The notes under the pieces were generated by a model. The model was not told the DNA's origin. It saw only the letters and a program-made list of their open reading frames with translations, and made no database searches. Source: a virus. From it: a stretch of DNA of 28,054 nt. Shown piece by piece: positions 390 to 12,904 of the stretch; the first letter of the stretch is position 1; every line of letters starts with the position of its first letter. A program made the position numbers and the translations under genes. The stretch lies in the IMG/VR virus record IMGVR_UViG_3300050821_004203, positions 1 to 28,054 of that record. One strand, 5' to 3'.

Positions 390-409
390 AAGTTTCTCTC
401 CTTTTGCAC

Positions 410-423
410 GGGACTTGAGACCC
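410..423 (-). promoter_or_regulatory. leader hairpin with CTCAAG loop (weak member)
   Basis: On the minus strand GGG, loop TCTCAAGT, CCC lies 20 nt upstream of the start of the Cys-Ser-X gene, directly before its AAGGAGAG site. The stem is only three G-C pairs, so this is the weakest of seven similar leader hairpins. The 13-bp sequence AGTGCATTACACG at 438-450 recurs upstream of the hairpin at 12419-12436. Confidence 0.5.
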
Positions 424-480
424 TTTCGCCTTAGCGAAGTGCATTACACGGCGATCATACAGACTCGCCGGCTCTCTGCA

Positions 481-888
481 TTACTCCATCTCTTCTGCTT
501 CTTCCTCTTCAACCTCCGTTTCCTCGACTTCCTCTTCGGGTTCGGCTTTCTTCGCTTTCTTGGCCGCTTTCTTTGCGGGGGGAGCAGCTTTCTTCCTACT
601 TTTCTTCGCGGCCTTTTCTTTCTCAGTTTTTGCCGCCGCGTTGGCTTTGCGCTCTTCCTGCCGCTCTTTGTACTCTTCGATCATTTTGCGCTCAGCCTTG
701 AGCGGGTCACCGATCTTCCACTCATAGCGTTGTCCCTCGCTGCCCTTGCCAGCAGCACGCAGAACGGAGCGGAAAAACTTGGGATCCACCCCGAGTTGCT
801 TCGCCACGTCCTTAGTTCCCCACATTTTGGGAGCTTCAGGTTTCTTCTCCTTCTTTGCGGGTGCTTCGACTTCTTTCTTGGTGGCCAT
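481..888 (-). CDS. HTH protein with histone-like Lys/Ala and acidic tail
   Basis: A 135-residue protein. Residues ~20-65 (WGTKDVAKQLGVDPKFFRSV onward) look like a small helix-turn-helix followed by a basic wing. The rest is a Lys/Glu helix, then AKKSRKKAAPPAKKAAKKAK, then an almost purely acidic tail. That resembles histone H1/HU-tail architecture, so a DNA-coating or nucleoid-acting role is inferred. The 69-residue protein at 12185-12394 has the same HTH pattern (AKEVA, NFRKHLR, QYEF). Start chosen at ATG 888 because of the GAAGGAGA site. The frame is open back to ATG 1050, which has its own GGGGTGAGG site and an ATGA overlap with the upstream gene, so a 189-residue form is possible. Confidence 0.85.
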   Translation of the reverse strand: MATKKEVEAPAKKEKKPEAPKMWGTKDVAKQLGVDPKFFRSVLRAAGKGSEGQRYEWKIGDPLKAERKMIEEYKERQEERKANAAAKTEKEKAAKKSRKKAAPPAKKAAKKAKKAEPEEEVEETEVEEEEAEEME

Positions 889-1046
889 ATTTGTTTCTCC
901 TTCTGCCTCGGTTACGCGATGGCTTGCGATTTTGAATCTGTGCGTCCTAATTCTGTGGCGTTGTGGCGTGCCGATGGGATTCGGGTACTGCGCTCGAACT
1001 TCGTGATCGTAATCCCGCATGTCGTAGTCGCGTAAGGCTTCGAGCA

Positions 1047-1331
1047 TCATCGCCTCACCCCTTTCGACTTTGGGAGTACGAGAAGATTTCGCGGGTCACA
1101 CTGTCGGGCTACTCGCTCGGCGCGCTTCCCTCTCAGCACTGGCGGGCCGATACGCATGTGAGCCGTACGCATGAAACCCACACGCCAGCGAGTTTCTTTC
1201 CTCTGTTCCCGATTGGGCGGCTGTACATTCGGAGCGACTTTGTTAAAGCGCGGGATGTCACCGTACTTCTTTCTCCCGTGCCAGTCGCTCAGTTGCTTCA
1301 TCTTCTCCGCAGCCCAGTTGAGTAGCTTCAT
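1047..1331 (-). CDS. small basic hypothetical protein
   Basis: A 94-residue, strongly basic protein (MKLLNWAAEKMKQLSDWHGR at the N-terminus, VLPKSKGVRR at the C-terminus). I recognise no domain. The start ATG 1331 overlaps the stop of the upstream gene (ATGA) and sits behind a near-perfect AAAGGAGGTGACAGC site, so translation is coupled. Its own stop overlaps ATG 1050. The Arg/Lys content suggests nucleic-acid contact, but no motif shows it. Confidence 0.75.
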   Translation of the reverse strand: MKLLNWAAEKMKQLSDWHGRKKYGDIPRFNKVAPNVQPPNREQRKETRWRVGFMRTAHMRIGPPVLRGKRAERVARQCDPRNLLVLPKSKGVRR

Positions 1332-2266
1332 GCTGTCACCTCCTTTACTGCGCCGTGCCCGATGAGTTCTTTCAAGAAACGCAGGCAGATCATATCCCAG
1401 TCCTGCTTCGTCTTGAGGAACTTCTGAGCCGCAACCGAAAGCTCCGCGAACGTAAATGATTTGCCTTTGAACGTTTGCGCTGCTTTCAGCAGATCAGACT
1501 CTCTTCCCGAGGCTACGTGTGGCTCACTCTTGCTGCCCACAGCGACCACTTGAAACGTCTTCGACATGAGTATAGACTTCTCGCTTCTCGGCGCTCTTGG
1601 AACACGTTGGCCCGTCTTGGCGTCAACCCTTGACTCTGCACTCGGAGACCAAGATAGCAGAGCTTTGTGGTATCTGTCAAGTGAGAGGTGAATATTCTTT
1701 TCCAGATGCTCGCCGTTGAATTTGATATGCGGGTCCCCGATATCTCTAAGCCACACCCACTGTACGAGATGATTGATCGGGTCTCGCACAAGTTCCCTCA
1801 CAAATGGTTCTGTCTTCATTCCCATCTGTTGACAGATCGCGGCAAGCTGTGAATCCATGAGTCGATCCAACGGCGAGTCTTCCCGATTCGCGCCGATGAC
1901 CTTATTCAGGTCCTTCGTATCGACAGCGAAAGCCACATCGCCACAGACGAAGTGAGCTTCTCCCTTCTTTACGATGTGGATATGTGGTCTGTCGTCGGGC
2001 AGTTCTTTTGTGGCGATTGTGTTTCGCACAATTCGCTCCGCGTCGTGGCGAATGCGCCCCTTGTCGATCTGCTTTGCTACTCTTTCCTTGTAACGATAAC
2101 GCGGGTTCTTTAGGGCCGCTTCGATCTCTGCCTCAGAGACGCCGAACTTGTTTCTGTCCAGCATCGAGCGAACCTCTTCGTTCTTCGCCACAACCTCCTC
2201 GTAGCTGTTCGGCTTCGTGAAAGTCTTCTGCTCGGGTAGAGAGACTTTAGTGGCTCGTTTGTACAC
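1328..2266 (-). CDS. hypothetical protein, 312 residues
   Basis: The start is GTG 2266 behind GGGGAGGTCAGC; a longer frame back to GTG 2308 has no ribosome site. The protein is mixed alpha/beta and soluble, with no membrane segment and few cysteines. An Arg/Lys/Glu-rich helical N-terminus is followed by a segment HIHIVKKGEAHFVCGDVAFA and a long C-terminal helical part. I recognise no family. Its start lies inside the 56-residue gene 2247-2417 in another frame (20-bp overlap), and its stop overlaps the next start, so it is expressed with the small-gene operon that begins at the promoter near 3761. Confidence 0.8.
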   Translation of the reverse strand: MYKRATKVSLPEQKTFTKPNSYEEVVAKNEEVRSMLDRNKFGVSEAEIEAALKNPRYRYKERVAKQIDKGRIRHDAERIVRNTIATKELPDDRPHIHIVKKGEAHFVCGDVAFAVDTKDLNKVIGANREDSPLDRLMDSQLAAICQQMGMKTEPFVRELVRDPINHLVQWVWLRDIGDPHIKFNGEHLEKNIHLSLDRYHKALLSWSPSAESRVDAKTGQRVPRAPRSEKSILMSKTFQVVAVGSKSEPHVASGRESDLLKAAQTFKGKSFTFAELSVAAQKFLKTKQDWDMICLRFLKELIGHGAVKEVTA

Positions 2267-2417
2267 GCTGACCTCCCCAGATACCAGTCTGTGCGCGTAG
2301 CAGAGCACGCCGCGCTTTCTTGACGGCCGGGTCCATCTCAGCCCGCCGCAGTTGCTTGCGAATTTCCCGAACGATCTGCATCCGGGTCTTGCCTTCGATC
2401 AGCTTGCGTTTCGCCAT
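2247..2417 (-). CDS. small basic protein, 56 residues
   Basis: ATG 2417 lies behind AGAGGA (spacing about 6). The product begins MAKRKLIEGKTRMQIVREIR, is rich in Arg/Lys and ends QTSH. It is predicted to be mostly helical; no family recognised. It overlaps the start of the 312-residue gene by 20 bp in a different frame. A leader hairpin with the CTCAAG loop (2432-2450) precedes it, although this gene is inside an operon. It could be a small nucleic-acid-binding protein, which is inference only. Confidence 0.7.
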   Translation of the reverse strand: MAKRKLIEGKTRMQIVREIRKQLRRAEMDPAVKKARRALLRAQTGIWGGQRVQTSH

Positions 2418-2431
2418 AGTTCCTCTTTTCT

Positions 2432-2450
2432 GTCAGCCTTGAGAACTGAC
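2432..2450 (-). promoter_or_regulatory. leader hairpin with CTCAAG loop
   Basis: On the minus strand GTCAG, loop TTCTCAAGG, CTGAC forms a 5-bp perfect stem ending 14 nt upstream of ATG 2417, just before AGAAAAGAGGAACT. It spans the stop codon of the upstream gene (2433-2435). I see no convincing promoter, so here the element would act inside a polycistronic transcript. Confidence 0.65.
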
Positions 2451-2717
2451 TAGGGATTGTAAATCTTTGCCACTACCCTTGTTTTCAAATACAATCGTGT
2501 AGTCTCCGAAGGGTTCACGAACGAATCGCCAGCGTTTCCACTCGCCCGACTCACAGACGAATAGATAGTCCAGCCTATCGTCTTTTCTGCGAAGAATCCA
2601 TTCATCTATCCCGAGCATTCGATGTACAGCGTCGGGACCGATGTAGACTCTCCAGCCCGCTGTTTTGAGCTTCGCCACAACCAGATCGAATTTGTAACGC
2701 TGTGCCATTGTTGTCAT
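2433..2717 (-). CDS. hypothetical protein, 94 residues
   Basis: The start ATG 2717 overlaps the previous stop as TAATG and has a GGGGGT site. The product is a small alpha/beta protein (KFDLVVAKLKTAGWRVYIGP, then IDEWILRRKDDRLDYLFVCE). The pattern of a helix with 'GW.VY.GP' and alternating strands suggests a compact globular fold. No family recognised. ATG 2708 (MAQRYKFD) is a possible alternative start. Confidence 0.75.
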   Translation of the reverse strand: MTTMAQRYKFDLVVAKLKTAGWRVYIGPDAVHRMLGIDEWILRRKDDRLDYLFVCESGEWKRWRFVREPFGDYTIVFENKGSGKDLQSLVSSQG

Positions 2718-2953
2718 TATGCACCCCCTACTTCATGTTTATCACCGTGATACAGATGCCAGTTCTGTGTACAACCACACCCACGAATAGCATGTATCTC
2801 GGCTCTCCATTTCTCTGTGTAGCTGGCTACTACGGCTGGTTGCTCTGACTCGGGCGCAGCGCAATCGACTACATGCCAGATAGTCTTTGATTCGCCGTGT
2901 ACTGCTACTACCCCGAAAACGTGATCTGTTCCCCAGCGAATGAATTTTTCCAT
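2717..2953 (-). CDS. hypothetical protein, 78 residues
   Basis: Start ATG 2953 was chosen because of GGGAGGTCAGTG and an ATGA overlap with the upstream gene; a longer frame to 2980 lies inside that gene. The product begins MEKFIRWGTDHVFGVVAVHG. It contains KTIWHVVDC, SYTEKWRAEIHA and GCGCTQNWHLYHGDKHEVGG near the C-terminus. The Cys/His content could bind a metal. No family recognised. Confidence 0.75.
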   Translation of the reverse strand: MEKFIRWGTDHVFGVVAVHGESKTIWHVVDCAAPESEQPAVVASYTEKWRAEIHAIRGCGCTQNWHLYHGDKHEVGGA

Positions 2954-3480
2954 CACTGACCTCCCATAATCGCAGCGCATTCCGGCCCAATGCCACGCTC
3001 GACTGACTCGGGAACAGTGAGCTTACGATCGCAACGACCGCATTTTCCCTCATGCCAAAGTGATAAGTCTGCGGGAAATTGTCGATTCGCTAGATGCTGA
3101 TACAAGTAGCGGAACGCACGAACTGGCATAGACTCATCGGTCATCTTGCTGGCTCGCGTCAAGGAGAATACTTTCTCCTTAATCATCCCGAGATAGCTGT
3201 AATTCGTTGAGTTCTCTGGTCCCGTCAGCAGAGACACAAAGTATATGGGATTCGCCCAGCACTTGCAGTCCTTCTTACCGCAGCGTGAGCAAGTCCCACG
3301 ACTGACGCGAAAGGTATAGCGTGTGCCTGTCTTCTGTGACCGCACAGTGAAGTACGCATTACCCGCAAGAATGAATCGCAGGGCATCGTCGGCGCTAGTG
3401 ATCTGAGACGGGAGGGAGCAGTCTGTCGCTCCCTCTCGATCTCGCGTGTCGAAGTCGGGCAGATTGAGTTGGGTTGCCAT
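2953..3480 (-). CDS. DUF6011-like zinc-ribbon protein
   Basis: A 175-residue protein starting at ATG 3480 (GGTGAAGTG site, ATGA overlap). The C-terminal segment CGRCDRKLTVPESVERGIGP followed by EC matches the DUF6011 pattern: a Cys pair, a short hydrophobic linker, S-x-x-x-G-x-G-P-x-C. The family is common in phage and plasmid accessory proteins and is thought to bind zinc. A second Cys cluster, CSRCGKKDCKCW, is in the middle of the protein, so two zinc sites are plausible. The exact function of the family is unknown to me. Confidence 0.8.
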   Translation of the reverse strand: MATQLNLPDFDTRDREGATDCSLPSQITSADDALRFILAGNAYFTVRSQKTGTRYTFRVSRGTCSRCGKKDCKCWANPIYFVSLLTGPENSTNYSYLGMIKEKVFSLTRASKMTDESMPVRAFRYLYQHLANRQFPADLSLWHEGKCGRCDRKLTVPESVERGIGPECAAIMGGQ

Positions 3481-3686
3481 CACTTCACCGCCACGAGAAA
3501 GCCGTTCTTCATCGTGCCTTGAGCGTACCACTTGTGGGGCTCAGGGTAGTGAGGACCTTCGAGAAACACTGTGCCGTTCTGCGGCGCTGAGCCGATGCCT
3601 GGCTGAAAGACATCTACTCTCTTTCCCGACGCCAGGTAAGCCTTGAGTTCCTTTTTCGTCTTGAAGTTTATCTCCGTGTAAGCCAT
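3480..3686 (-). CDS. hypothetical protein, 68 residues, first gene of operon
   Basis: ATG 3686 behind AGAGAGGAACAC is preferred over the in-frame ATG 3761, which lies inside the promoter. The product begins MAYTEINFKTKKELKAYLAS and ends GTMKNGFLVAVK. The segment KKELKAYLASGKRVDVFQPG reads as a helix followed by strands. No family recognised. It is the first gene after the promoter at 3732-3761 and the leader hairpin at 3703-3721. Confidence 0.78.
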   Translation of the reverse strand: MAYTEINFKTKKELKAYLASGKRVDVFQPGIGSAPQNGTVFLEGPHYPEPHKWYAQGTMKNGFLVAVK

Positions 3687-3702
3687 GTGTTCCTCTCTTT
3701 CT

Positions 3703-3721
3703 GCAAGTCTTGAGTACTCGC
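3703..3721 (-). promoter_or_regulatory. leader hairpin with ACTCAAG loop
   Basis: On the minus strand GCGAGT, loop ACTCAAG, ACTTGC. The 6-bp stem includes one G-U pair. It ends 16 nt before ATG 3686, immediately upstream of AGAAAGAGAGGAACAC, and lies in the leader of the promoter at 3732-3761. Confidence 0.7.
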
Positions 3722-3731
3722 TGACAGAACT

Positions 3732-3761
3732 ACGATAGCAGACCAAGGCATATCGTGTCAA
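3732..3761 (-). promoter_or_regulatory. sigma70-like promoter, CCCCTTGACA class
   Basis: The -35 is TTGACA at 3756-3761, preceded by CCCC; spacer 18 bp; -10 is TATCGT at 3732-3737. The same CCCCTTGACA block occurs at 5147, 6468 and 7844 on this strand and at 13843 on the plus strand. It drives the operon 3686 down to 1. Confidence 0.75.
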
Positions 3762-3784
3762 GGGGCCCGCGGATTAAAGACAGC

Positions 3785-4579
3785 CTAGTTTAACTGTCGA
3801 TTTGGTCCGCCAGCGTTCAGCGGGCGATTCAGATTCAAGCCATTTGCCGCGTTCTTACCTGCGCTATATCCTGCGTCATTGAAATGCTGAGGCCCGCGAA
3901 CGCGAGAGGCCATCTTGCGGAACTTGTTCATGTAATCCAGCACGGCGAGAGCCTCTTTATCCACACGTACAAGTGCGGTTGACTGTGTGGGATTATTGAA
4001 CTTCTCCCGTTCCTCTTTCATGCGTTGCCCGATGCGCTCACAGAAGCCGCGCAGCCAAGACTCTCTGAATCCCCTCGGCGTCATGCCTGCCCCGCCGTTC
4101 TGCTGACGCCACGCGGCACGCTGCTTCTTTGCCGCGTTCGAGGACATCTTATCTGCGGCGCGAAGCATGGTGAGATACAGATACTCGACCATCGCCACAT
4201 TCGACTTGTGTCCGACAAAGTAGATGATCGAAGAACCTTGCACAACGAGAAAGCGGCAGCTGTAGGCGTTGGACACAATATCAGCCAAACGCTCTGCCCA
4301 CTCGCGCCGCTGCCCGACTACTTCCACGTCGGGAAAGTCTTTGTAGACTCGCCCGCGCTTCATGTCGTAGATTGTCTCAGGGCGCTGCTCCACGATGGGT
4401 TCTGACTGCATTTCCTTCTGATAGTTGATGTCCGTCATTTCGAGCTTATGGCGAAGCAGGAGATTCTGAAGCATGCCAGCGAAAGCCTGCGCCTCAGCCT
4501 CGTTGCCGATTTCCTTCGCAGAATCCATGTGACGCTTGATCTTACCCAACTTGTCGAGAATCTTTTCTGTGTCGGTCAT
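3785..4579 (-). CDS. DUF2786 domain protein
   Basis: A 264-residue protein. The N-terminal ~50 residues (KILDKLGKIKRHMDSAKEIG, then NEAEAQAFAGMLQNLLLRHK and LEMTDI) match the DUF2786 helical hairpin. That domain is widespread in phages and usually sits before a DUF7168-type domain, which the middle part here (REWAERLADIVSNAYSCRFL, then IIYFVGHKSNVAMVEYLY) resembles. The C-terminus is Gly/Asn/Arg rich (LNLNRPLNAGGPNRQLN). The biochemical role is unknown. The start overlaps the upstream stop (ATGA) with a GGCGGT site. It is the last gene of the operon that starts at 5083. Confidence 0.88.
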   Translation of the reverse strand: MTDTEKILDKLGKIKRHMDSAKEIGNEAEAQAFAGMLQNLLLRHKLEMTDINYQKEMQSEPIVEQRPETIYDMKRGRVYKDFPDVEVVGQRREWAERLADIVSNAYSCRFLVVQGSSIIYFVGHKSNVAMVEYLYLTMLRAADKMSSNAAKKQRAAWRQQNGGAGMTPRGFRESWLRGFCERIGQRMKEEREKFNNPTQSTALVRVDKEALAVLDYMNKFRKMASRVRGPQHFNDAGYSAGKNAANGLNLNRPLNAGGPNRQLN

Positions 4580-4872
4580 GCTGCACCGCCTTTCTCTATT
4601 GCCAGCATTGTGGCGTCATCGAGCCTGCTGTAGTTCACATAGTAGACACAGTCTACGCAGATGGAAAAGCTCACGACCTCAGAGTTCCCTTCCTGATGAG
4701 CGAGGAGATCATACCGTTCTCCGCCATCGCCGTCTTGGCAGCAGTCGCAACGGTCCCACGAGAAGTGATTCTCATTGCCCGTACTGAGATGCGACAGTTT
4801 GAACTCCGTGACGAAGAGATCCACCGTCCGCTTGTACTTGCGATAATCTTCGGCTGTTTTGACGTTAGCCAC
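4576..4872 (-). CDS. small Cys-pair (zinc-ribbon-like) protein
   Basis: A 98-residue protein starting at GTG 4872 behind GAAGGAGGC, overlapping the upstream stop by 8 bp. Two Cys pairs, DRCDCCQDGDGGERYD and SICVDCVYYVNY, would form a zinc knuckle pair across a short beta hairpin. The N-terminus (MANVKTAEDYRKYKRTVDLF) is helical. No named family recognised; the zinc-ribbon call is from Cys spacing only. Confidence 0.75.
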   Translation of the reverse strand: MANVKTAEDYRKYKRTVDLFVTEFKLSHLSTGNENHFSWDRCDCCQDGDGGERYDLLAHQEGNSEVVSFSICVDCVYYVNYSRLDDATMLAIEKGGAA

Positions 4873-5083
4873 GATTAGCCTCCTTCTTCAGTAACTCATT
4901 GAAGGCTAGTTTGGGCGGCGTTCTTTTGATGCCGAATATGCACCAATTGTCGGGACTTTCAACGCCGATTGCTCTTGCCAGCAGATTGAATTGGTTGCAG
5001 ATATGTTCGGGGATAAGTTCTACGTTATCCCGCATGTAGTCTCTGATCTCCACGAGGGCTTCGATCTTCTCTTGCCTTTTCAT
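4865..5083 (-). CDS. hypothetical protein, 72 residues, first gene of operon
   Basis: ATG 5083 lies behind AAGGAGAGAGACA. The product begins MKRQEKIEALVEIRDYMRDN and is helical, with the segment DNWCIFGIKRTPPKLAFNEL in the second half. No family recognised. It follows the promoter at 5123-5152 and the leader hairpin at 5098-5118. An in-frame ATG at 5152 lies inside the promoter and is rejected. Confidence 0.78.
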   Translation of the reverse strand: MKRQEKIEALVEIRDYMRDNVELIPEHICNQFNLLARAIGVESPDNWCIFGIKRTPPKLAFNELLKKEANRG

Positions 5084-5097
5084 TGTCTCTCTCCTTG

Positions 5098-5118
5098 TTG
5101 CGCTCTTGAGTAGCGCAA
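5098..5118 (-). promoter_or_regulatory. leader hairpin with ACTCAAG loop (best stem)
   Basis: On the minus strand TTGCGCT, loop ACTCAAG, AGCGCAA: a perfect 7-bp stem with a 7-nt loop. It ends 14 nt before ATG 5083, followed by CAAGGAGAGAGACA. It is the strongest member of the leader hairpin set. Confidence 0.8.
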
Positions 5119-5122
5119 GACC

Positions 5123-5152
5123 AGAATAGCGCAGTGAGTGCCGACTTGTCAA
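5123..5152 (-). promoter_or_regulatory. sigma70-like promoter, CCCCTTGACA class
   Basis: TTGACA at 5147-5152 preceded by CCCC, 18-bp spacer, -10 TATTCT at 5123-5128. The TGA stop of the upstream gene (5149-5151) lies inside the -35 hexamer, so gene end and promoter share bases. Confidence 0.78.
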
Positions 5153-5295
5153 GGGGTCTGGTTAGCTTTAGTCCGCAGCGCTTCCTGAGCGATAGCCTGA
5201 ATCTTTCTCTCGGCTCCGGTCAGATCGAGGGTGTCAATCCCTCGCAGAGTATCGAGGATTCTTTCGAGAGCCTTGCGATAGTTCTTGGATTTCAT
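5149..5295 (-). CDS. small helical protein, 48 residues
   Basis: ATG 5295 overlaps the preceding stop (ATGA) behind TGGAGG. The product begins MKSKNYRKALERILDTLRGI and ends RTKANQTP. It is one or two amphipathic helices with no recognised family. The final TGA is embedded in the -35 box of the next promoter. Confidence 0.65.
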   Translation of the reverse strand: MKSKNYRKALERILDTLRGIDTLDLTGAERKIQAIAQEALRTKANQTP

Positions 5296-5453
5296 TTGTC
5301 CTCCAGTGCTTCGCGCAGAGTGATAAGAGCCTCAGACGGATCTTCATTCAGCCCGGCGTCCTCATCCTCGGCTTCAAGCAGAGCGATAGCGTTACGAACC
5401 GCCCTTTCCAGCTTCTCCAGCCTTTCGAGTGTAGCGATCTTGACATTAGCCAC
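5292..5453 (-). CDS. small acidic coiled-coil protein, 53 residues
   Basis: GTG 5453 lies behind TGGAGGTGGCAC and overlaps the upstream stop by 8 bp. The product begins MANVKIATLERLEKLERAVR and contains the acidic stretch LLEAEDEDAGLNEDPSEALI. The Leu/Glu heptad pattern suggests a short coiled coil. It shares the MANVK start with the gene at 4576-4872, including the CGTGGCTAATGTCAAG type start region, which hints at duplication of a start module. Confidence 0.68.
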   Translation of the reverse strand: MANVKIATLERLEKLERAVRNAIALLEAEDEDAGLNEDPSEALITLREALEDK

Positions 5454-5664
5454 GTGCCACCTCCATTACGAGAGTCTCTTTGAGCCGAGTGCCGTCCTGA
5501 ATATAAATGATGCGAGAGCCACAGGCGTGATTCCACATCTTTGTGCTATCAGGCGCGAATGCGACCTTCACCGTCAAGTGACAGTACGGGCACTCGAATC
5601 TGTAGCGATTCCTACCGAGCACGTAGCCGACGAATTCGATCTTGAAGGTTTCATTATGGATCAT
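5446..5664 (-). CDS. zinc-finger-like protein, 72 residues
   Basis: ATG 5664 (TTGGAGG site) overlaps the upstream stop (ATGA). The product has FECPYCHLTVKVAF followed by WNHACGSRIIYI: a C-x2-C plus H-x-C arrangement typical of single zinc ribbons. It is a beta-rich small protein; no named family recognised. Confidence 0.75.
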   Translation of the reverse strand: MIHNETFKIEFVGYVLGRNRYRFECPYCHLTVKVAFAPDSTKMWNHACGSRIIYIQDGTRLKETLVMEVARG

Positions 5665-6400: not shown

Positions 6401-6415
6401 GTGTTTCTCCTTTCA

Positions 6416-6432
6416 AAGCTCTTGAGTAGCTT
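6416..6432 (-). promoter_or_regulatory. leader hairpin with ACTCAAG loop
   Basis: On the minus strand AAGCT, loop ACTCAAG, AGCTT: a perfect 5-bp stem ending 15 nt before ATG 6400, followed by TGAAAGGAGAAACAC. The loop is identical to those at 3703 and 5098 while the stem is different. Confidence 0.72.
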
Positions 6433-6444
6433 CGATCTAGAGTG

Positions 6445-6473
6445 AGTGTACAGCGTCAGGCGAATTGTGTCAA
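6445..6473 (-). promoter_or_regulatory. sigma70-like promoter, CCCCTTGACA class
   Basis: TTGACA at 6468-6473 preceded by CCCC, 17-bp spacer, -10 TACACT at 6445-6450. It lies in the short gap downstream of the ligase stop and drives the genes from 6400 leftward. Confidence 0.8.
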
Positions 6474-6485
6474 GGGGTCAGAGGA

Positions 6486-7373: not shown

Positions 7374-7403
7374 TAGTTTACCCTCCTTGAGGAATATGAT
7401 CTG

Positions 7404-7790
7404 CTAATCCCACCAGGCTTCGATCTGGCAAGTTCCCGTGAGTTCTGGGTCATCATTGACTCGCACCTCATCAGCCGCGAGAGTTGACACGAACTCCACA
7501 ATCTCTGCCTTGCTGAGGCTATTGAGATCGAAGCGGATAGTGTCGAACCAGAACTCTCCAGCCACGTCATCGATGATGCTAGGTTGCATCTCAGTGATGA
7601 GGCTCATTTTACCCTCAAAGGCCTCCTCGATTGTCTCTGAAGTATTGTGCAGAATGAATGTGCCTTGCGGGTATAGCCCTCTCCATTCTGCATATGTCTT
7701 GAAGGGATGATCTTCCTCACCTTTTAGTTGATCTTCCCCGTAATGCCCAGTGATGTGATTGTCCAATGCGTTGCGTTCCTGTTGATTCAT
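7404..7790 (-). CDS. acidic hypothetical protein, 128 residues
   Basis: ATG 7790 lies behind a modest GTGAGG site and is the first gene after the promoter at 7821-7849. The acidic product begins MNQQERNALDNHITGHYGED and ends TGTCQIEAWWD. The segment SKAEIVEFVSTLAADEVRVN is a probable helix. No family recognised. It is co-transcribed with the DNA ligase, so a role near DNA replication is possible by association only. Confidence 0.75.
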   Translation of the reverse strand: MNQQERNALDNHITGHYGEDQLKGEEDHPFKTYAEWRGLYPQGTFILHNTSETIEEAFEGKMSLITEMQPSIIDDVAGEFWFDTIRFDLNSLSKAEIVEFVSTLAADEVRVNDDPELTGTCQIEAWWD

Positions 7791-7820
7791 GCCGTTGCCT
7801 CACTTTCTCTCTACATTCTC

Positions 7821-7849
7821 AGTGTATAGAGTCTGGCGACGCTTGTCAA
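7821..7849 (-). promoter_or_regulatory. sigma70-like promoter, CCCCTTGACA class
   Basis: TTGACA at 7844-7849 preceded by CCCC, 17-bp spacer, -10 TACACT at 7821-7826. It drives the 128-residue gene and the ligase. Unlike the other members, its leader has no CTCAAG hairpin. Confidence 0.8.
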
Positions 7850-7877
7850 GGGGCTGAGGGGTAATCTATTAGCCAAT

Positions 7878-7904
7878 AAAAAACCTCCCGCTGGTCTGGG
7901 AGGT
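7878..7904 (-). terminator. rho-independent terminator
   Basis: On the minus strand a perfect 7-bp stem ACCTCCC / GGGAGGT with an 8-nt loop is followed by TTTTTT. It ends the leftward operon 10564-7948 and lies just before the promoter of the ligase operon. It is the only clear intrinsic terminator I found. Confidence 0.85.
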
Positions 7905-7947
7905 GCTGAGCTACGCCTTGCCGGGCCCTGCTATGCGGCGCGAGTCT

Positions 7948-8259
7948 TTAATCTGTATAGCCTCTCATAAAGACTGGATTCTCGGGCAGGGGGTAGTTCG
8001 CCGGGTAGTTTCCGATTATTTCTCTGTACATGAGGCACTGCTCATCCCAGTCTGCTCTGTCGGTCTGATGCAGCAGAATAAATGGCTGTGGGAGTTCATA
8101 GATGCCACCATACTCCCCATTTGTGAAGCGCGTTATCCTTAAACCAACTTTCTTCTCCACGCCGACGAACACGAGATAGCCACGCCTGTTATATACCTCA
8201 ATGAGAACCTGATGGGCCTCTGACAGCGTAATGGCTCCGGCTCCCCCTGAACCGATCAT
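7948..8259 (-). CDS. hypothetical protein, 103 residues
   Basis: Start ATG 8259 was chosen for its CAGGAGGCGAG site and ATGA overlap; the frame is open to 8328 inside the upstream gene. The product begins MIGSGGAGAITLSEAHQVLI, with RRGYLVFVGVEKKVGLRITR as beta strands and NYPANYPLPENPVFMRGYTD at the end. No family recognised. It is the last gene before the terminator at 7878-7904. Confidence 0.75.
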   Translation of the reverse strand: MIGSGGAGAITLSEAHQVLIEVYNRRGYLVFVGVEKKVGLRITRFTNGEYGGIYELPQPFILLHQTDRADWDEQCLMYREIIGNYPANYPLPENPVFMRGYTD

Positions 8260-8720
8260 CTCGCCTCCTGTTTTACGACATACAGTATCCCCTTCTTGCC
8301 AAACTCTCGCGCCTTCTTTAGCGTCCAACAGCCACCGCTCTTGACGTGTGCGGGCGGTTCTAGCACATCGTTAGCGCAGTGATAGCAGTATACAAAGCGC
8401 CTGCCGGTATAGCCTGCGGGCAGATATGGCACCGTTATGTTGTGCAGCGCGTCTGAGTAGCGTGCAATCTGTAGGTTACGCCGCTTGAAGAACTCCCAGC
8501 TGCTACCTTCAGGCGGAAACGGCGTGAACTTCTTGCCTAGCTCCTCTGCCACCTGACGTGCCCACTTATCGACCCCGCCCAGCGGGCACTCGCCACTGCA
8601 TACTTCTGTTACCTGTGGGTCTAAGACAATGCGCCGTATAAATGTCAGCGCACATGCCTTACCATACGCCGTGAACTTGCGTTCCTCAGCACCCACAATG
8701 CCAGCGATCACAAGCCGCAC
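8256..8720 (-). CDS. SLOG / DUF2493-like nucleotide-binding protein
   Basis: A 154-residue protein if started at GTG 8720 (MRLVIAGIVG). The core is a first strand LVIAGIVG, then TEVCSGECPLGGVDKWARQV, which fits the S-G-x-x-x-G-x-D turn of the SLOG/DUF2493 superfamily. It continues with KKFTPFPPEG and a late SGGCWTLKKAREFGKKGILY. The family binds nucleotides or nucleotide derivatives; substrate unknown. GTG 8711, overlapping the upstream TGA, is an alternative start but would clip the first strand. Confidence 0.7.
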   Translation of the reverse strand: MRLVIAGIVGAEERKFTAYGKACALTFIRRIVLDPQVTEVCSGECPLGGVDKWARQVAEELGKKFTPFPPEGSSWEFFKRRNLQIARYSDALHNITVPYLPAGYTGRRFVYCYHCANDVLEPPAHVKSGGCWTLKKAREFGKKGILYVVKQEAR

Positions 8721-8983
8721 TCCGTTTCTTGGATGTCGTTGTCCCGCCACAGCAGGAATCTCTGATGCCTCTCGTCACATAAGATCAATTCGCTCTGATC
8801 TACAGGGTAGAGTAGTCCCTGCTCGGCTAGAAATGCCGTGAAAGCCTTGACTTCGTGAAAAGCAAAGCCGCCCTTGAACACAAGATAGCCGTCTGAGTCT
8901 CGATATATTCCAAGTTTAGCTCCTTCAAATCCATCCCGCCAGGGATGTTCTTCGAGCCACTTCATTAGCTCTTGATCGCTCAT
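8708..8983 (-). CDS. hypothetical protein, 91 residues
   Basis: ATG 8983 lies behind AAGGAGAAAAAGAA and overlaps the upstream stop (ATGA). The product begins MSDQELMKWLEEHPWRDGFE and has GYLVFKGGFAFHEVKAFTAF, LILCDERHQRFLLWR and a QETECGL end. It is a compact alpha/beta protein with no recognised family. Confidence 0.75.
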   Translation of the reverse strand: MSDQELMKWLEEHPWRDGFEGAKLGIYRDSDGYLVFKGGFAFHEVKAFTAFLAEQGLLYPVDQSELILCDERHQRFLLWRDNDIQETECGL

Positions 8984-9267
8984 TTCTTTTTCTCCTTGAT
9001 CTTAGCCCTCTCATCTGCCGTGAACTCTCGCCCGAATATTGCCGTCTCGATGATGTCTGGCAGTATGACTGCCGCTTTCTCTAGAGCCTCTTGCATGAAC
9101 GGGCGGTGTGTAGGGCCATTATGCCATATACCCCTGTAGTACCTGTTATAGTCATCCTGCGATATGTGTGGGTTCTCTTCATTCACTTGCCGAGCCATCT
9201 GCTCTGTCTTGCACTCACAGAGTACGGGCTTAGAGCAGACGCCACAGAGAGTAACTGCCGGTTTCAT
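8980..9267 (-). CDS. small Cys-cluster protein, 95 residues
   Basis: The product begins MKPAVTLCGVCSKPVLCECK; four cysteines in the first 20 residues make a likely zinc knuckle. The remainder is helical and polar (RPFMQEALEKAAVILPDIIE) with a Lys tail. The start overlaps the upstream stop (ATGA) inside the TGGAGATTACACTATGA repeat. No named family recognised. Confidence 0.75.
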   Translation of the reverse strand: MKPAVTLCGVCSKPVLCECKTEQMARQVNEENPHISQDDYNRYYRGIWHNGPTHRPFMQEALEKAAVILPDIIETAIFGREFTADERAKIKEKKK

Positions 9268-9280
9268 AGTGTAATCTCCA
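9264..9280 (-). repeat. 17-bp exact repeat, copy 1 (gene-junction module)
   Basis: On the minus strand TGGAGATTACACTATGA. It encodes the C-terminal EITL, carries the GGAG ribosome site and includes the ATGA stop-start overlap. An identical copy is at 9464-9480. Confidence 0.9.
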
Positions 9281-9467
9281 ACCCGTCGATCTGTACAGGT
9301 TTCTTGATCTTGCGCGAGAGCCTTCTAGGATTACGAGCCTCGATCTGACTAGCCGCCTCTACACGCATCTCGCCGTCTTTCATTTCCTTCAGCAGCCTCT
9401 TGCCGCGCTCCGACTTATTCAAGAGCTTCTGCCTTTCTTCCATCGCCTCCCGTTCTCTATTTCTCAT
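9264..9467 (-). CDS. small basic protein sharing a C-terminal tag with its neighbour
   Basis: A 67-residue, Arg/Lys/Glu-rich helical protein (MRNREREAMEERQKLLNKSE onward). Its last 16 residues, RKIKKPVQIDGLEITL, closely match the end of the upstream 366-residue protein (GKIKRKVHVDDLEITL). The 17 bp coding EITL, the stop and the next start are identical in both. This suggests a small gene born by duplication of the end of its neighbour. The DNA also supplies the ribosome site for the following gene. Confidence 0.72.
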   Translation of the reverse strand: MRNREREAMEERQKLLNKSERGKRLLKEMKDGEMRVEAASQIEARNPRRLSRKIKKPVQIDGLEITL

Positions 9468-9480
9468 AGTGTAATCTCCA
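9464..9480 (-). repeat. 17-bp exact repeat, copy 2 (gene-junction module)
   Basis: Identical to 9264-9280, exactly 200 bp apart. Both copies link two genes by translational coupling, so the module has been duplicated together with the end of the coding sequence. Confidence 0.9.
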
Positions 9481-10564
9481 GATCATCGACATGCACCTTT
9501 CTTTTGATTTTTCCCACTACTCGGGCTGTCGGCTCACCCAGCGTTATCTTCTCTTCACCGTCGCCCCAATCACGCCAGCGGCTCATCTCATCGGGGAAAC
9601 GCTGTAGCATCTGTTTCTTATAGCTCTTAAAGTTAGCCAGCGCCTCGTCGTGGGCTGCTGGTACGTCACGATGCTTTCTTACCTGCTTAGACAACCATCG
9701 CAAGCGATCCATGCGATCCCTTGACGTTGATGGCATCCAGTCAGGCTCGTCGTTATCCAAGGTTAGTACCTCTACCTTTGACTGAGTAGGCGGCTTACGA
9801 TTCAGACTATAATTTCTATCGCGCCAGTATTCCTTGCCATTTATCTCCAGCTTCTTTATGGACCCCAGTTTTATTCTAGCCCTTTCTAAAAGCACATGAC
9901 TTTCCCATCTCTTCTCTTTCAAAGCGAGGGCGTAAACTTCAGAGGCTTTGATCTGCCCCCTGTCGTAGAGAAGTTGACCCAACCAGTCAATCACGTCTTC
10001 CGAGACGTGAACCCAACGCCATACCCCGTCCTCTCCTCGATAGTTTCGGATGCCTAACTCTCTCTTGGAGGTGTAGATTTTGGACTTTAAATGCCTTTTC
10101 ATTGCCCGCAATACATCTTTTATGGGACAATCGAGATGATGAAAGACCATATATTTTCTCAACTCCTCAATTTCTCTGTTCCATGATTTTGTGCGAGTCA
10201 CATTCTTGCCGTGACAGAATGGGCAACGAATTCTCTTCTCTGAGGCGGGAGCATCAAATCTTACAGTTCCCGGAATTGGGTTGGTAGGACAGAACATACA
10301 GACGTAGATGATTTTCTTTATTCTGCCCAGGGCCTCCTCAGGTGTGCGTTTAGGCGCGAACCAGCAGAAACGACCAGCAATCTTCTTTGATTGCACCCCC
10401 AAGAGCTTACGCGCCTTTACAAGTGTAGGCTTAGACCCTTTAAGTTGATCGAGGGCATCTTTTGCGAGGATTCTTCGTTTGCCATAGAGTCTCTTCTTAT
10501 CCACAAAAAGTTCGTAGATGCGATGCACTGCTGTGCGTACTCTGGTCTTTTCTAGATTCTTCAT
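9464..10564 (-). CDS. zinc-ribbon plus winged-helix-like DNA-binding protein, possible replication initiator
   Basis: A 366-residue basic protein. Residues ~15-75 contain DALDQLKGSKPTLVKARKLL and GRFCWFAPK. Residues ~180-245 contain ASEVYALALKEKRW, LLERARIKLGSIKKLE and a closing YW. Both resemble the 'L.RA+..LG......W' winged helix found at the ends of many phage primase/RepA-type proteins (inference). Between them CMFCPTNP and CPFCHGKN form a four-Cys zinc ribbon. A polar C-terminus ends in DDLEITL. It is the first gene of the leftward operon and lies next to the iteron-like repeats at 10667-10818, so an origin-binding or regulatory role is plausible. ATG 10564 has a weak GAGAG site. Confidence 0.7.
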   Translation of the reverse strand: MKNLEKTRVRTAVHRIYELFVDKKRLYGKRRILAKDALDQLKGSKPTLVKARKLLGVQSKKIAGRFCWFAPKRTPEEALGRIKKIIYVCMFCPTNPIPGTVRFDAPASEKRIRCPFCHGKNVTRTKSWNREIEELRKYMVFHHLDCPIKDVLRAMKRHLKSKIYTSKRELGIRNYRGEDGVWRWVHVSEDVIDWLGQLLYDRGQIKASEVYALALKEKRWESHVLLERARIKLGSIKKLEINGKEYWRDRNYSLNRKPPTQSKVEVLTLDNDEPDWMPSTSRDRMDRLRWLSKQVRKHRDVPAAHDEALANFKSYKKQMLQRFPDEMSRWRDWGDGEEKITLGEPTARVVGKIKRKVHVDDLEITL

Positions 10565-10601
10565 TTTTGACTCTCTATATCGATAGATATGGGTAGCATC
10601 T

Positions 10602-10620
10602 GCTATTCAATGTGTGTATT
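10602..10620. other. imperfect palindrome upstream of the 366-residue gene
   Basis: CTATTCAAT and ATTGATAG flank a short GT-rich centre in the leader of the leftward gene at 10564. It could be an operator or hairpin. One base is unpaired, and I see no good promoter hexamers nearby. In the rest of the 10565-11066 gap see the repeats at 10667-10818 and the promoter at 11032-11060; 10820-11010 holds nothing I can recognise. Confidence 0.4.
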
Positions 10621-10666
10621 GATAGCATAAAGACTGAGCCTTTGCAAGCTAATTGAAAATGGCAGA

Positions 10667-10703
10667 GTCAACAGTATAGGGACATGGGTGAGTCAATGGT
10701 ATA
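10667..10703 (+). repeat. iteron-like 12-bp repeats, left pair
   Basis: GTCAACAGTATA at 10667-10678 and GTCAATGGTATA at 10692-10703, both followed by GGG; start-to-start distance is 25 bp. They are the inverted counterparts of the right pair at 10782-10818. Confidence 0.85.
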
Positions 10704-10781
10704 GGGGAATGGTCGACATTGCGAGTTGAATGCACCTATAAATAAAGTTAAATTAGCAACTTTCAATGTACGCCAGTGCCT

Positions 10782-10818
10782 TATACTGTTGACTGGGCCA
10801 CTCGTCTATAGTGTTGAC
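10782..10818 (-). repeat. iteron-like 12-bp repeats, right pair (inverted)
   Basis: TATACTGTTGAC at 10782-10793 and TATAGTGTTGAC at 10807-10818, again 25 bp apart. Read on the minus strand they are GTCAACAGTATA and GTCAACACTATA. The outer left copy and the inner right copy agree at all 12 positions. An AT-rich segment of about 80 bp lies between the two pairs. Confidence 0.85.
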
Positions 10819-11031
10819 TTATCCTTTTAATGGAGAGGTTAATTTATGTAGTAAATATCATATCAGGAATGTAATCGAGTTAGCATCGTCATCTTTTCGC
10901 AATACGCGCGACACCTTGAAAGTCCCCCAGAACTAACCGTGATAATCTGACACCGGTTGCTCTCACTGTTTGTGTCTGTACGTTTTGGGAAATTTGCGTG
11001 CCCTGAAAGGACCAATTGACACTGACACCAC

Positions 11032-11060
11032 TTGACATTCACTTACATCATATGTAATGT
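11032..11060 (+). promoter_or_regulatory. promoter of leaderless ribbon-helix-helix gene
   Basis: TTGACA at 11032-11037, 17-bp spacer, -10 TAATGT at 11055-11060. The -10 ends 6 bp before ATG 11067, so transcription should start at or next to the A of the ATG. A second TTGACA lies 16 bp upstream at 11016. Confidence 0.78.
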
Positions 11061-11064
11061 AAGT
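11041..11064. promoter_or_regulatory. operator-like palindrome over the -10 box
   Basis: ACTTACAT, 8-bp centre, ATGTAAGT: perfect 8-bp arms. A nested palindrome TTACAT-CAT-ATGTAA overlaps it. Both cover the spacer and -10 of the promoter at 11032, the expected position for autorepression by the ribbon-helix-helix product. Confidence 0.75.
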
Positions 11065-11066
11065 AC

Positions 11067-11237
11067 ATGACACCTACTAACAGAGATCGCCTGCTACAAA
11101 TCAGGCTCACAGATAAGGAATTGGAGCACATCAAACTGTGGGCAAAGGAAGCCAATCAACCAGTTTCATGGTTTATGCGAGCCGTCATTAAGTTCTGGGT
11201 GGATGGAAATCGAAAGAAGAACGGAGTATTTCAATGA
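11067..11237 (+). CDS. ribbon-helix-helix transcriptional regulator 1
   Basis: A 56-residue protein. The segment RLLQIRLTDKELEHIKLWAK, then EANQPVSWFMRAVIKFWV, fits Arc/MetJ/CopG: a short DNA-contacting strand (LLQIRLT), helix A, a turn with Pro-Val-Ser and helix B. It should bind DNA as a dimer at palindromes such as 11041-11064, which overlaps its own promoter, so autorepression is inferred. There is no ribosome site and the predicted transcript begins at the ATG, so it is probably leaderless, as for lambda cI from PRM. The stop overlaps the next start (ATGA). Confidence 0.82.
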   Translation: MTPTNRDRLLQIRLTDKELEHIKLWAKEANQPVSWFMRAVIKFWVDGNRKKNGVFQ

Positions 11238-11647
11238 GAATCCCCGTATACCTCAAAGGCCAAGACCCAGCTCAAGCTCCAGCGAGCCATTCAGCTTCAA
11301 CGGCACTGTGTCAACTTGTGTTGGCTTGTGGGTGTGGGGTTCTGGCTACCGTAGACGGTCGCCGAGTGCTCAAGCTCTCAACGGATGAGACGTGGCGGGC
11401 ACTGAAAGATCGCCTGAAGCCAGATAAACACGGTCATGTGATCGTAAGGCTGAAGGCACCACGAAAACCGCTGGCCCTGGACCTCTCCTATCCCGAGAAA
11501 GGGCGCGAGAGCGGGCGCCATCCACATGAAGCGATGCTCAAGCAGTGCATAGTAATAAGAGAGAAGAGAAAGGCGCTCTTGGCTCAAGCTAACGCTAGTA
11601 CGGGCGCACAGGCATCAGCTCAAGCACAAGAAAGCACAGCAGTATAA
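11234..11647 (+). CDS. hypothetical protein with Ala-Gln repeats, 137 residues
   Basis: ATG 11234 overlaps the previous stop and lies behind CGGAG. The product has a hydrophobic segment TALCQLVLACGCGVLATVDG followed by a polar middle (ETWRALKDRLKPDKHGHVIV) and a low-complexity C-terminus rich in Ala, Gln and Ser. The coding region contains five of the eight GCTCAAGC octamers of this stretch. A different frame (11559-11826) is open without a start codon past the end of this gene, so a frameshifted extension cannot be excluded. No family recognised. Confidence 0.7.
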   Translation: MRIPVYLKGQDPAQAPASHSASTALCQLVLACGCGVLATVDGRRVLKLSTDETWRALKDRLKPDKHGHVIVRLKAPRKPLALDLSYPEKGRESGRHPHEAMLKQCIVIREKRKALLAQANASTGAQASAQAQESTAV

Positions 11648-11854
11648 AGAGAAGCAGCAAGCGGGTGCTCGCCTCATATCCGCCCGAATTTTCATCCAAC
11701 ATTTCCTTCGTCTTTGTCGTTTCGTTGACCGCGTACTGCTCTTTAACCGCCGCTACGACCTGCGCACGCCTCCTCAGAGCTTAGTTAGCTCAAGCATAGC
11801 CGCGCCTAGCTCAAGCACAAGCCGTGACTGACACTGCCGCACGTTTGCTCAAGC
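11270..11854 (+). repeat. eight dispersed GCTCAAGC octamers
   Basis: Exact copies start at 11270, 11368, 11536, 11582, 11618, 11788, 11809 and 11847. Chance would give far less than one in 600 bp. Five are in the 137-residue gene in more than one reading frame and three are in the noncoding gap 11648-11855, so protein coding does not explain them. The core CTCAAG is also the constant loop of the leader hairpins. Confidence 0.85.
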
Positions 11855-11855
11855 A

Positions 11856-12077
11856 CTAGTCTCTTAATTTCAGTTTAAGTTCCGTCCTCAGCAAGTAGAT
11901 CGCAGCTTCCTTCCACTTCTTACTGTGATCCACATACTCGTCGTCTTCCACTTCATCAACTATCCACTCTATCGCTCCGCTGAGAGTGAGTAGTCCCGCA
12001 CAGACTTTCTCCGCAGTCTCTCCGCTTCCCGCTGCGAAGTCATCCGCAATAATGCGTATTGCCTTCTGCTGTGTCAT
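11856..12077 (-). CDS. acidic hypothetical protein, 73 residues
   Basis: ATG 12077 lies behind GCGAGG. The product begins MTQQKAIRIIADDFAAGSGE and ends TELKLKLRD. It is helical with a strongly acidic centre (EWIVDEVEDDEYVD). No family recognised. The leader has a 6-bp hairpin TCAGAC / GTCTGA (12094-12111) with a loop unlike the CTCAAG class. Confidence 0.7.
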   Translation of the reverse strand: MTQQKAIRIIADDFAAGSGETAEKVCAGLLTLSGAIEWIVDEVEDDEYVDHSKKWKEAAIYLLRTELKLKLRD

Positions 12078-12144
12078 ATAGTGCCTCGCTTTCTCAGACT
12101 GATGTGTCTGATAGAGCGCTCGACTCGCGTCTAGTGTGCATGAA

Positions 12145-12174
12145 AGAGAGCGCTCACAAGTGCAAGCGCTCTCT
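12145..12174. repeat. perfect inverted repeat AGAGAGCGCT
   Basis: AGAGAGCGCT, 10-bp centre, AGCGCTCTCT. It lies between the 69- and 73-residue minus-strand genes. On the minus strand the stem is followed by TTTC only, so it is at best a weak terminator; an operator or processing site is equally possible. Related AGCGCTCT strings are frequent from 12080 to 12900. Confidence 0.7.
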
Positions 12175-12184
12175 ATCTCACAAG

Positions 12185-12394
12185 CTAGACTCTCGCGTCT
12201 TCGCTCTGCTCGATCTCTTCGTCAGCAGCGAACTGCGCAACGATCTTGTCAGCTTGCTTTGACGTGAACTCATACTGCTTTTGCTTGCGCTCTGCTTGAA
12301 TCGAGTTCTCGCGCAAGTGCTTGCGAAAGTTCTTCGCAGTCATATTGCACATTGCAGCTACTTCTTTCGCTGACAGCTTGTCTGATTTTGACAT
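12185..12394 (-). CDS. small HTH protein, 69 residues
   Basis: Start ATG 12394 behind GAGAGAAACTACA was chosen over an upstream in-frame codon in the leader. The product begins MSKSDKLSAKEVAAMCNMTA and has NFRKHLREN and QKQYEFTSKQADKIVAQF. The pattern (A/T)K(D/E)VA, F/N-FR-x-x-LR, YE-F/W matches the HTH of the 135-residue protein at 481-888, but without the Lys/Ala and acidic tails. The two are probably diverged paralogues of a DNA-binding protein. Confidence 0.78.
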   Translation of the reverse strand: MSKSDKLSAKEVAAMCNMTAKNFRKHLRENSIQAERKQKQYEFTSKQADKIVAQFAADEEIEQSEDARV

Positions 12395-12418
12395 TGTAGT
12401 TTCTCTCAGATGCACGTT

Positions 12419-12436
12419 TCGAGACTTGAGACTCGA
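12419..12436 (-). promoter_or_regulatory. leader hairpin with CTCAAG loop
   Basis: On the minus strand TCGAG, loop TCTCAAGT, CTCGA: a perfect 5-bp stem ending 24 nt before ATG 12394. Upstream at 12464-12476 is the 13-bp AGTGCATTACACG that also precedes the hairpin at 410-423. Confidence 0.68.
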
Positions 12437-12472
12437 TAGAGCGCTTAGATCGTGCTGCGCTCTAGTGCATTA

Positions 12473-12499
12473 CACGACACACAACTAGCGCGTGTCGTG
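12473..12499. repeat. perfect inverted repeat CACGACAC / GTGTCGTG
   Basis: Eight-bp arms with an 11-nt centre in the leader of the 69-residue HTH gene. There is no T-run on either side, so it is more likely an operator or RNA structure than a terminator. Confidence 0.7.
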
Positions 12500-12534
12500 C
12501 TCTCTGCGATACAGAGTATTTGATGCTGCAAAGC

Positions 12535-12828
12535 TCAGTCTTGATTCAGACTGCGCTCTCTGTAGCTCTGCGCTGCGCTCTCGCTGAATACGTTGACATC
12601 GTTCGAGTAGACGATCTGTGAGCTAAGCTCTGCTACGTCAGACAAAAAACGCTGACGCGCTAGCGCTGCGCTCAGTCTCTTCTGCTCATCGATGCGACGA
12701 TACAGCACAGCGTCTAGCTGCTCGTCTAGCGTCTTCGCTGCGAAGTTAGAGTGATATGCTTTTTCGATCTGTTCACAGACTGCGCTGCGATACTGCGCTT
12801 CTGTGTGTGTGCAAGATACGCGTGTCAT
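12535..12828 (-). CDS. hypothetical helical protein, 97 residues
   Basis: Start ATG 12828 behind AGAGAGAAAC was chosen because the longer frame to 12888 runs through the promoter and hairpin. The product begins MTRVSCTHTEAQYRSAVCEQ and contains RRIDEQKRLSAALARQRFLS; it is helical and polar. No family recognised. Its codons are unusually rich in AGCGC/GCGCT strings compared with neighbours. It is the first gene leftward from the divergent region 12829-13250. Confidence 0.72.
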   Translation of the reverse strand: MTRVSCTHTEAQYRSAVCEQIEKAYHSNFAAKTLDEQLDAVLYRRIDEQKRLSAALARQRFLSDVAELSSQIVYSNDVNVFSESAAQSYRERSLNQD

Positions 12829-12843
12829 GTTTCTCTCTTTTCT

Positions 12844-12860
12844 GATCGCTTGAGACGATC
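12844..12860 (-). promoter_or_regulatory. leader hairpin with CTCAAG loop
   Basis: On the minus strand GATCG, loop TCTCAAG, CGATC: a perfect 5-bp stem ending 15 nt before ATG 12828, followed by AGAAAAGAGAGAAAC. It lies downstream of the promoter at 12875-12904. Confidence 0.72.
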
Positions 12861-12874
12861 TCGATTCTGTGAAG

Positions 12875-12904
12875 AGTGTAGCGCACAAGCGCGATTGTTG
12901 TCAA
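12875..12904 (-). promoter_or_regulatory. sigma70-like promoter
   Basis: TTGACA at 12899-12904, 18-bp spacer, -10 TACACT at 12875-12880. A second TTGACA lies 7 bp further upstream (12906-12911). It lacks the CCCC prefix of the other minus-strand promoters. Confidence 0.75.

Follow-up and report, generated by a model that had tools for sequence, protein, structure and literature searches.

The window studied here is the complete 28,054-nucleotide (nt) stretch of DNA from an uncultured phage in IMG/VR record IMGVR_UViG_3300050821_004203 (positions 1 to 28,054). On its minus strand, seven leaders of early genes contain a hairpin with CUCAAG in the loop just ahead of the ribosome site (Table 1). 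An initial annotation had treated these hairpins as a single family with paired but variable stems and loops of 7-9 nt, and had proposed an RNA-level element common to the early leaders. All seven hairpins are present where it had placed them, and their distances to the ATG are also as described (14, 14, 15, 15, 16, 20, and 24 nt). At 2432, 3703, 5098, 6416, and 12844 the loop has exactly seven bases (WCUCAAG), whereas at 410 and 12419 it has eight (UCUCAAGU). These last two are the sites with the 20- and 24-nt spacers, and they share a second hairpin ahead of the 8-nt-loop hairpin, with CGUGUAAUGCACU further upstream. Instead of one family there are two kinds, namely five stand-alone hairpins and two that are very probably the L4 hairpins of twister ribozymes.

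To judge how unusual the loop is, every hexamer was counted wherever in the window it lay in a 7-8-nt hairpin loop with a ribosome site and a start codon behind it. CTCAAG was found at seven sites, compared with two for the runner-up, and in 40 Markov-1 sequences the same count never exceeded three for any hexamer. The five 7-nt-loop hairpins (without those at 410 and 12419) were then aligned over 5 bp for a covariation test. All 25 base-pair cells had standard pairs, for each of the five pairs some sequence differed at both bases, and neither the pairing nor the covariation score was reached by any of 500 shuffles. The pairing was lost when the partner strand was slid by one base. The covariation and the RNA-level nature proposed earlier have thus held up, while the grouping into one hairpin family has not. 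Since the stems are free, the loop is fixed, and the feature is confined to a single strand, the leader hairpin is real and, as far as sequence patterns can tell, acts as RNA. Four of the hairpins lie just past promoters, and the inverted repeats might for that reason be taken for DNA operators. However, the arms are wholly different between sites, conservation is confined to the single-stranded loop and to one strand, promoter and hairpin are separated by anything from 4 to 14 nt, and the two ribozyme sites have no promoter. We rejected this reading because of the stem covariation and regard it as extremely unlikely.

Twister ribozymes are defined by the stems P1, P2, and P4, conserved residues in loops L1 and L4, the pseudoknots T1 and T2, and cleavage at a U-A dinucleotide (PMC5408937). 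With a relaxed threshold, the Rfam model RF02684 aligns the sites at 410 and 12419 end to end with the type-P5 twister (27.6 bits, E 3e-4 in a 181-bp stretch for ribozyme 1; 33.6 bits, E 8e-6 in a 156-bp stretch for ribozyme 2). In the model alignments both have P1, P2, and P4 in type-P5 order, with one bulged U in P1 of ribozyme 1. The conserved L1 and L4 residues and the U-A cleavage dinucleotide are present in both (GCAGAGAGC, GUAAUGC, and GUCUCAAGUC). Pseudoknot T1, between CnC of L4 and GnG of L1, is formed by A with U in both copies, and T2, between xC of L2 and Gx' of L4, by AC with GU. Since both copies contain all the defining parts at the sequence level, the leaders 480-406 and 12508-12417 are almost certainly type-P5 twister ribozymes, and self-cleavage is predicted for them. 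A covariance model (R1) built from 31 viral sites of the wider scan described below, none of them from the window, also matched ribozyme 2 (12508-12417; 43.4 bits, E 1.5e-12) and ribozyme 1 (480-406; 31.7 bits, E 8.4e-9). The next match of this model in the window had an E of only 0.45, and the model did not pick up any of the five stand-alone leaders.

Three search results weigh against the assignment. Both ribozymes are under the Rfam gathering score (27.6 and 33.6 vs 37.6 bits), a 13.4-kb Rfam search with default filters listed only 480-409 (E 0.023), and a search of the whole record likewise listed only ribozyme 1. Ribozyme 2 was presumably dropped by the search filters owing to its long P3 insert. 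The gathering score is a limit set on scores and does not describe the structure.

Table 1. Leader elements in the window. Cleavage sites and post-cleavage helices are predictions.
Feature	Position	Strand	Remarks
Type-P5 twister ribozyme 1	406-480	-	Leader of the Cys-Ser-x repeat open reading frame (ORF), ATG at 389
Ribozyme 1, parts	GAGAG strand of L1 476-472; P4 hairpin and L4 loop 423-410	-	
Ribozyme 1, predicted cleavage	between U446 and A445	-	
Ribozyme 1, possible post-cleavage helix	UGCAC 443-439 with GUGCA 409-405	-	Folding and complementarity; suggestive only
Type-P5 twister ribozyme 2	12417-12508	-	Leader of ORF 12394-12185
Ribozyme 2, parts	GAGAG 12504-12500; P3 hairpin 12464-12437; P4/L4 12436-12419	-	
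Ribozyme 2, predicted cleavage	between U12472 and A12471	-	
Ribozyme 2, possible post-cleavage helix	AUGCAC 12470-12465 with GUGCAU 12415-12410	-	Folding and complementarity; suggestive only
Stand-alone hairpin GUCAGU-UCUCAAG-GCUGAC	2432-2450	-	Leader of ORF 2417-2247; lacks a clear -35 box
Stand-alone hairpin GCGAGU-ACUCAAG-ACUUGC	3703-3721	-	Leader of ORF 3686-3480
Promoter TTGACA-18-TATCGT	3732-3761	-	Precedes hairpin 3703
Stand-alone hairpin UUGCGCU-ACUCAAG-AGCGCAA	5098-5118	-	Leader of ORF 5083-4865
Promoter TTGACA-18-TATTCT	5123-5152	-	Precedes hairpin 5098
Stand-alone hairpin UCGAAGCU-ACUCAAG-AGCUUUGA	6413-6435	-	Leader of ORF 6400-6098; 3 bp longer than first described (6416-6432)
Promoter TTGACA-17-TACACT	6445-6473	-	Precedes hairpin 6416
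Stand-alone hairpin GAUCG-UCUCAAG-CGAUC	12844-12860	-	Leader of ORF 12828-12535
Promoter TTGACA-18-TACACT	12875-12904	-	Precedes hairpin 12844

Ribozyme 1 begins at the first base past the stop codon of ORF 1050-481, and ribozyme 2 lies 26 nt from the stop codon of ORF 12828-12535. Hairpin 12844 and ribozyme 2 lead two successive genes. A search immediately ahead of the two ribozymes found no sigma-70-like promoter. The gene behind ribozyme 1 (window 1-389, minus strand, running off the end) encodes a protein made of Cys-Ser-x triplet repeats (CSGCSRCSDCS...), for which Pfam gave no match.

Viral contigs were scanned with a twister-core pattern, which gave 45 sites in 36 stretches. Base n of GCAGAGnGC was unconstrained in the pattern, and at all 45 sites it is complementary to the free base of GGUCnCAAG (A-U, G-C, or U-A), as T1 predicts. 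A wider scan gave 87 distinct sites chosen for complementary T1 and P2, with P2 as GCA/UGC, GUG/CAC, or GGU/ACC. T2, which was not a selection criterion, covaries across the homologues (AC:GU, GC:GC, CC:GG, and few G-U). The Rfam twister model matched all 31 viral records holding the pattern, with 20 twisters in the richest (G029), 15 in G020, and 14 in G024, and it matched none of the window's terminase relatives and none of 14 control genomes. A slightly stricter pattern had matches in only two of 84,980 species genomes. The flank was long enough to be judged at 76 viral twister sites. At 72 of them a ribosome site and start codon follow within 60 nt, at a median of 23 nt from the end of P4, compared with 24% of random positions. 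On the basis of this placement the twister is a 5'-leader element in these viruses, as judged from the genomes. The genes 3' of the twisters encode mostly small proteins with no obvious function.

Six viral records, L187, L188 (G029), L189 (G020), L190 (G024), L191 (G037), and L192 (G034), have 8-20 type-P5 twisters each. They are all in a single orientation, each ahead of a start codon, and they include the P2 variants GUG/CAC and GGU/ACC that the strict pattern missed. Twister-like leaders with the GCAGAGnG strand 3' of the L4 hairpin, which is the type-P1 order, occur in L198 (at about 4523, minus strand) and L200 (at about 5198, plus strand), in records that also carry type-P5 copies.

The five stand-alone hairpins are placed differently with respect to promoters. 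In four of the five leaders, a TTGACA-17/18-TAnnnT promoter precedes the hairpin and its -10 box ends 4-14 nt ahead of it. If transcription starts about 7 nt past the -10 box, these four hairpins would begin no more than about 8 nt from the mRNA 5' end. Model matches and inspection, in any order of the parts, found no GAGnG strand, no UAA cleavage site, and no P2 around the five hairpins, and therefore they were not filed as twisters. Compared with the type-P5 twister they have only the L4-like hairpin. A third twister permutation, with the hairpin first and GAGAG after it, was considered for them and rejected since there is no UAA or P2 strand. No natural example of this permutation is reported in PMC10085705.

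The CUCAAG loop core is common to the stand-alone hairpins and to L4 of the ribozymes. The probability of sharing this hexamer by chance is on the order of one in a thousand, and thus the five hairpins are probably related to the twister L4, as copies or mimics of the ribozyme 3' hairpin. In that case the hairpin itself, and not the cut alone, would matter. The ribosome sites behind the promoter-made and the ribozyme leaders are also similar (GAGAGAAAC-like).

The five hairpins might instead merely stabilise the 5' end or be what is left of decayed ribozymes, with a loop that has no function and persists through recent descent. Stem-loops at the 5' end are known to protect bacterial mRNAs, as in ompA, and four of the five hairpins here are at predicted 5' ends. 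However, the stems have diverged wholly and with compensation while the loop is unchanged in all five, a pattern that recent descent does not produce unless the loop is under selection, and no remnant of GCAGAG or UAAUGC lies upstream of any of them. We consider this explanation rather unlikely. Another alternative is that the stand-alone loop pairs with GAG of its own Shine-Dalgarno sequence, reusing the T1 pairing in a pseudoknot that hides the ribosome site. CUC can pair with such a GAG in all five leaders, and n = U is the base that GAG calls for, but the pairing has 3 bp only and GAG is in nearly every Shine-Dalgarno sequence. Moreover, the CCC or CAC loops of other phages are not accompanied by a matching change in the ribosome site. 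We consider this pseudoknot quite improbable.

The ribozymes lie near stop codons without a promoter and the stand-alone hairpins lie behind promoters, which suggests two routes to an mRNA 5' end. The explanation that we favour, and consider likely for the leaders taken together, is that twister leaders and L4-mimic hairpins give the early mRNAs one front end by these two routes. Ribozymes 1 and 2, located between genes of an operon, would cut themselves at U^AA. The downstream mRNA would then begin with 5'-OH-AAUGCAC, followed by the P3 and P4/L4 hairpins and the ribosome site. A promoter-made leader would consist of a few bases, the CUCAAG-loop hairpin, and a similar ribosome site. The common front end would be a 5'-terminal CUCAAG hairpin 14-24 nt before the AUG, made either by promoter start or by ribozyme cleavage. 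Its likely use would be to fix the 5' end and shield it from nucleases while the ribosome site stays open, and the loop may additionally be recognised by a factor. An mRNA stabiliser, one of the roles suggested in the initial annotation, is still among the best guesses for the element. Whether the hairpin protects the 5' end or serves as the target of a factor is a matter of inference, and our confidence in any particular function of the loop is low.

Several observations count against a common front end of this kind. Hairpin 2432 has no clear promoter, only a -10-like TACAAT. The stand-alone loop has 7 nt and L4 has 8 nt, and the two have only a hexamer in common. In the 30 twister-bearing records, a search for promoter-driven L4 hairpins gave one pattern match (G030), which had no stem. 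A close relative of the early region was not found: by protein, there were no relatives for ORF 10564-9464 or for the DUF7168 ORF, and only distant kin for the ligase. The terminase relatives have only late genes in common with the window and contain no such hairpins or twisters, and their records do not cover the homologous early region.

One locus of another virus, L207, has a promoter-driven L4 hairpin (TTGACA-17-TATACT, then GCCGG-UCACAAGC-CCGGC, then AUGGAGGAAUAACCAUG). It is the sole clear case in other viruses, and L247 is a doubtful one. No convincing twister was found in the record of L207 or of L247. Scans of viral contigs for a promoter, WCTCAAG, and a purine-rich site gave chance matches only, which had no stems. 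Among other phages, recurrence is seen for the ribozyme, with 31 viral records, and hardly or not at all for the bare hairpin. A GCAGAGT in the promoter spacer of L207 was considered as a ribozyme remnant and rejected, since it is part of an ATACT..AGTAT repeat with three copies there. In another record (L269, G046), an identical hairpin GTTTACACAAGTAAAC with the loop CACAAG is found at 493 and 1795 on the minus strand, just ahead of two ribosome sites. An operator or a further leader hairpin of the CnCAAG kind would both be possible readings.

All seven loops could also be the binding site of one trans-acting factor, either an RNA-binding protein of phage or host or a CUUGAG antisense RNA, which represses, stabilises, or marks early mRNAs and for which the ribozymes are one scaffold. 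The loop core is constant in all seven leaders while the stems are free, and every one of the five stand-alone loops has U as n even though no T1 partner exists there. Furthermore, the sole CTTGAG cluster on the transcribed strand consists of eight copies of GCTTGAGC (11854-11270). In the ribozymes, however, CNCAAG is needed for T1 and the active site and is thus already explained, and elsewhere among phages n and its T1 partner change together. The binding protein is hypothetical, and the eight GCTTGAGC copies may form a DNA site. We regard a single trans-acting factor as unlikely. It is likewise doubtful that the L4 hairpin is a common 5' tag of early mRNAs, produced by cleavage or as promoter-made mimics and read by a phage protein or by the CUUGAG-repeat RNA (11854-11270). 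If true, such a tag would give phage twister ribozymes a natural role.

In both ribozymes of the window, the expected 5' end of the cleavage product (AAUGCnn) can pair with a segment that immediately precedes the ribosome site. The same holds for several other viruses, with the pairings AAUGCGG with CCGCAUU, GCACA with UGUGC, and AAUGCCC with GGGUAUU. We suggest that this helix would take the place of P2 after cleavage, prevent the cut from being reversed, and enclose the 5' end in paired RNA. Over all sites its mean score was 9.53 compared with 8.92 +/- 0.12 for permuted partners (about 5 standard deviations). When partners were permuted within contigs the value was 9.43 +/- 0.09, so that there was no excess, and for this reason the helix is no more than a suggestion.

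Some other features of the window were noted. The octamer GCTCAAGC has eight same-orientation copies within 585 bp (11270-11854, plus strand) and none elsewhere in the window. Three copies encode AQA and two encode LK in ORF 11234-11647, and since the other three are beyond this ORF, coding does not explain the octamer. Read as minus-strand RNA (GCUUGAGC), the cluster would complement the CUCAAG loops. The adjoining ORF 11067-11237 (plus strand) encodes a ribbon-helix-helix protein (RHH_1, E 1.4e-5). Repeats of the TCAACAGTATA/TATACTGTTGACTC type are found in both orientations at 10650-10810 and are possibly iterons or operators. At its C-terminal end, the portal ORF (22044-23954) carries a fused domain that resembles inorganic pyrophosphatase (InPase, Pfam PF18823).

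Short elements ahead of genes are also known from other systems. In cluster K mycobacteriophages, the SAS/ESAS element is repeated just ahead of many start codons in one genome. Its sequence is fixed, whereas the stems here vary with compensation and the element has a ribozyme relative. The MS2 coat operator, the T4 gp43 operator, and the iron-responsive element are 5'-leader hairpins with a conserved loop and a freer stem. In contrast to these, the loop here is accounted for by a ribozyme at two of the seven sites, and a protein that binds it is only a supposition.

Compared with the type-P5 twister of Rfam, the two window ribozymes share P1, P2, P3, P4, GAGnG in L1, U^AA, UCNCAAG in L4, T1, and T2, but they have the P3 insert, score below the gathering threshold, and serve as an mRNA leader directly ahead of a ribosome site. 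That ribozymes cut phage transcripts is a principle already known. Multiple hammerheads around single prophage genes and a hammerhead 13 nt ahead of a start codon in the halovirus HHphage have been reported, with the proposal that they cut long phage transcripts into gene-length mRNAs (PMC3088659). Those hammerheads and the twisters are both self-cleaving RNAs in phage operons, although the ribozyme class is different and cleavage is predicted here, and the passages of that report considered here describe no stand-alone promoter-driven copies of a ribozyme hairpin. Arrays of twisters that serve as leaders did not turn up in our literature search, which did not include the two founding twister papers. 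An enrichment of bacterial twisters in the vicinity of Mu-like phage genes and of other ribozymes is stated in PMC10085705, where the biological reason is given as unknown. The phage context and the clustering are common to those twisters and the viral ones described here, and the regular placement directly ahead of ribosome sites (72/76) is what sets the latter apart. Why bacteria and phages carry twisters at all is unknown (PMC10085705), and the leader arrays bear on that question. Twisters as regular 5' leaders, together with apparent copies of their 3' hairpin at promoter-made 5' ends in one phage, suggest that selection may act on the product, a specific hairpin at a defined 5' end.

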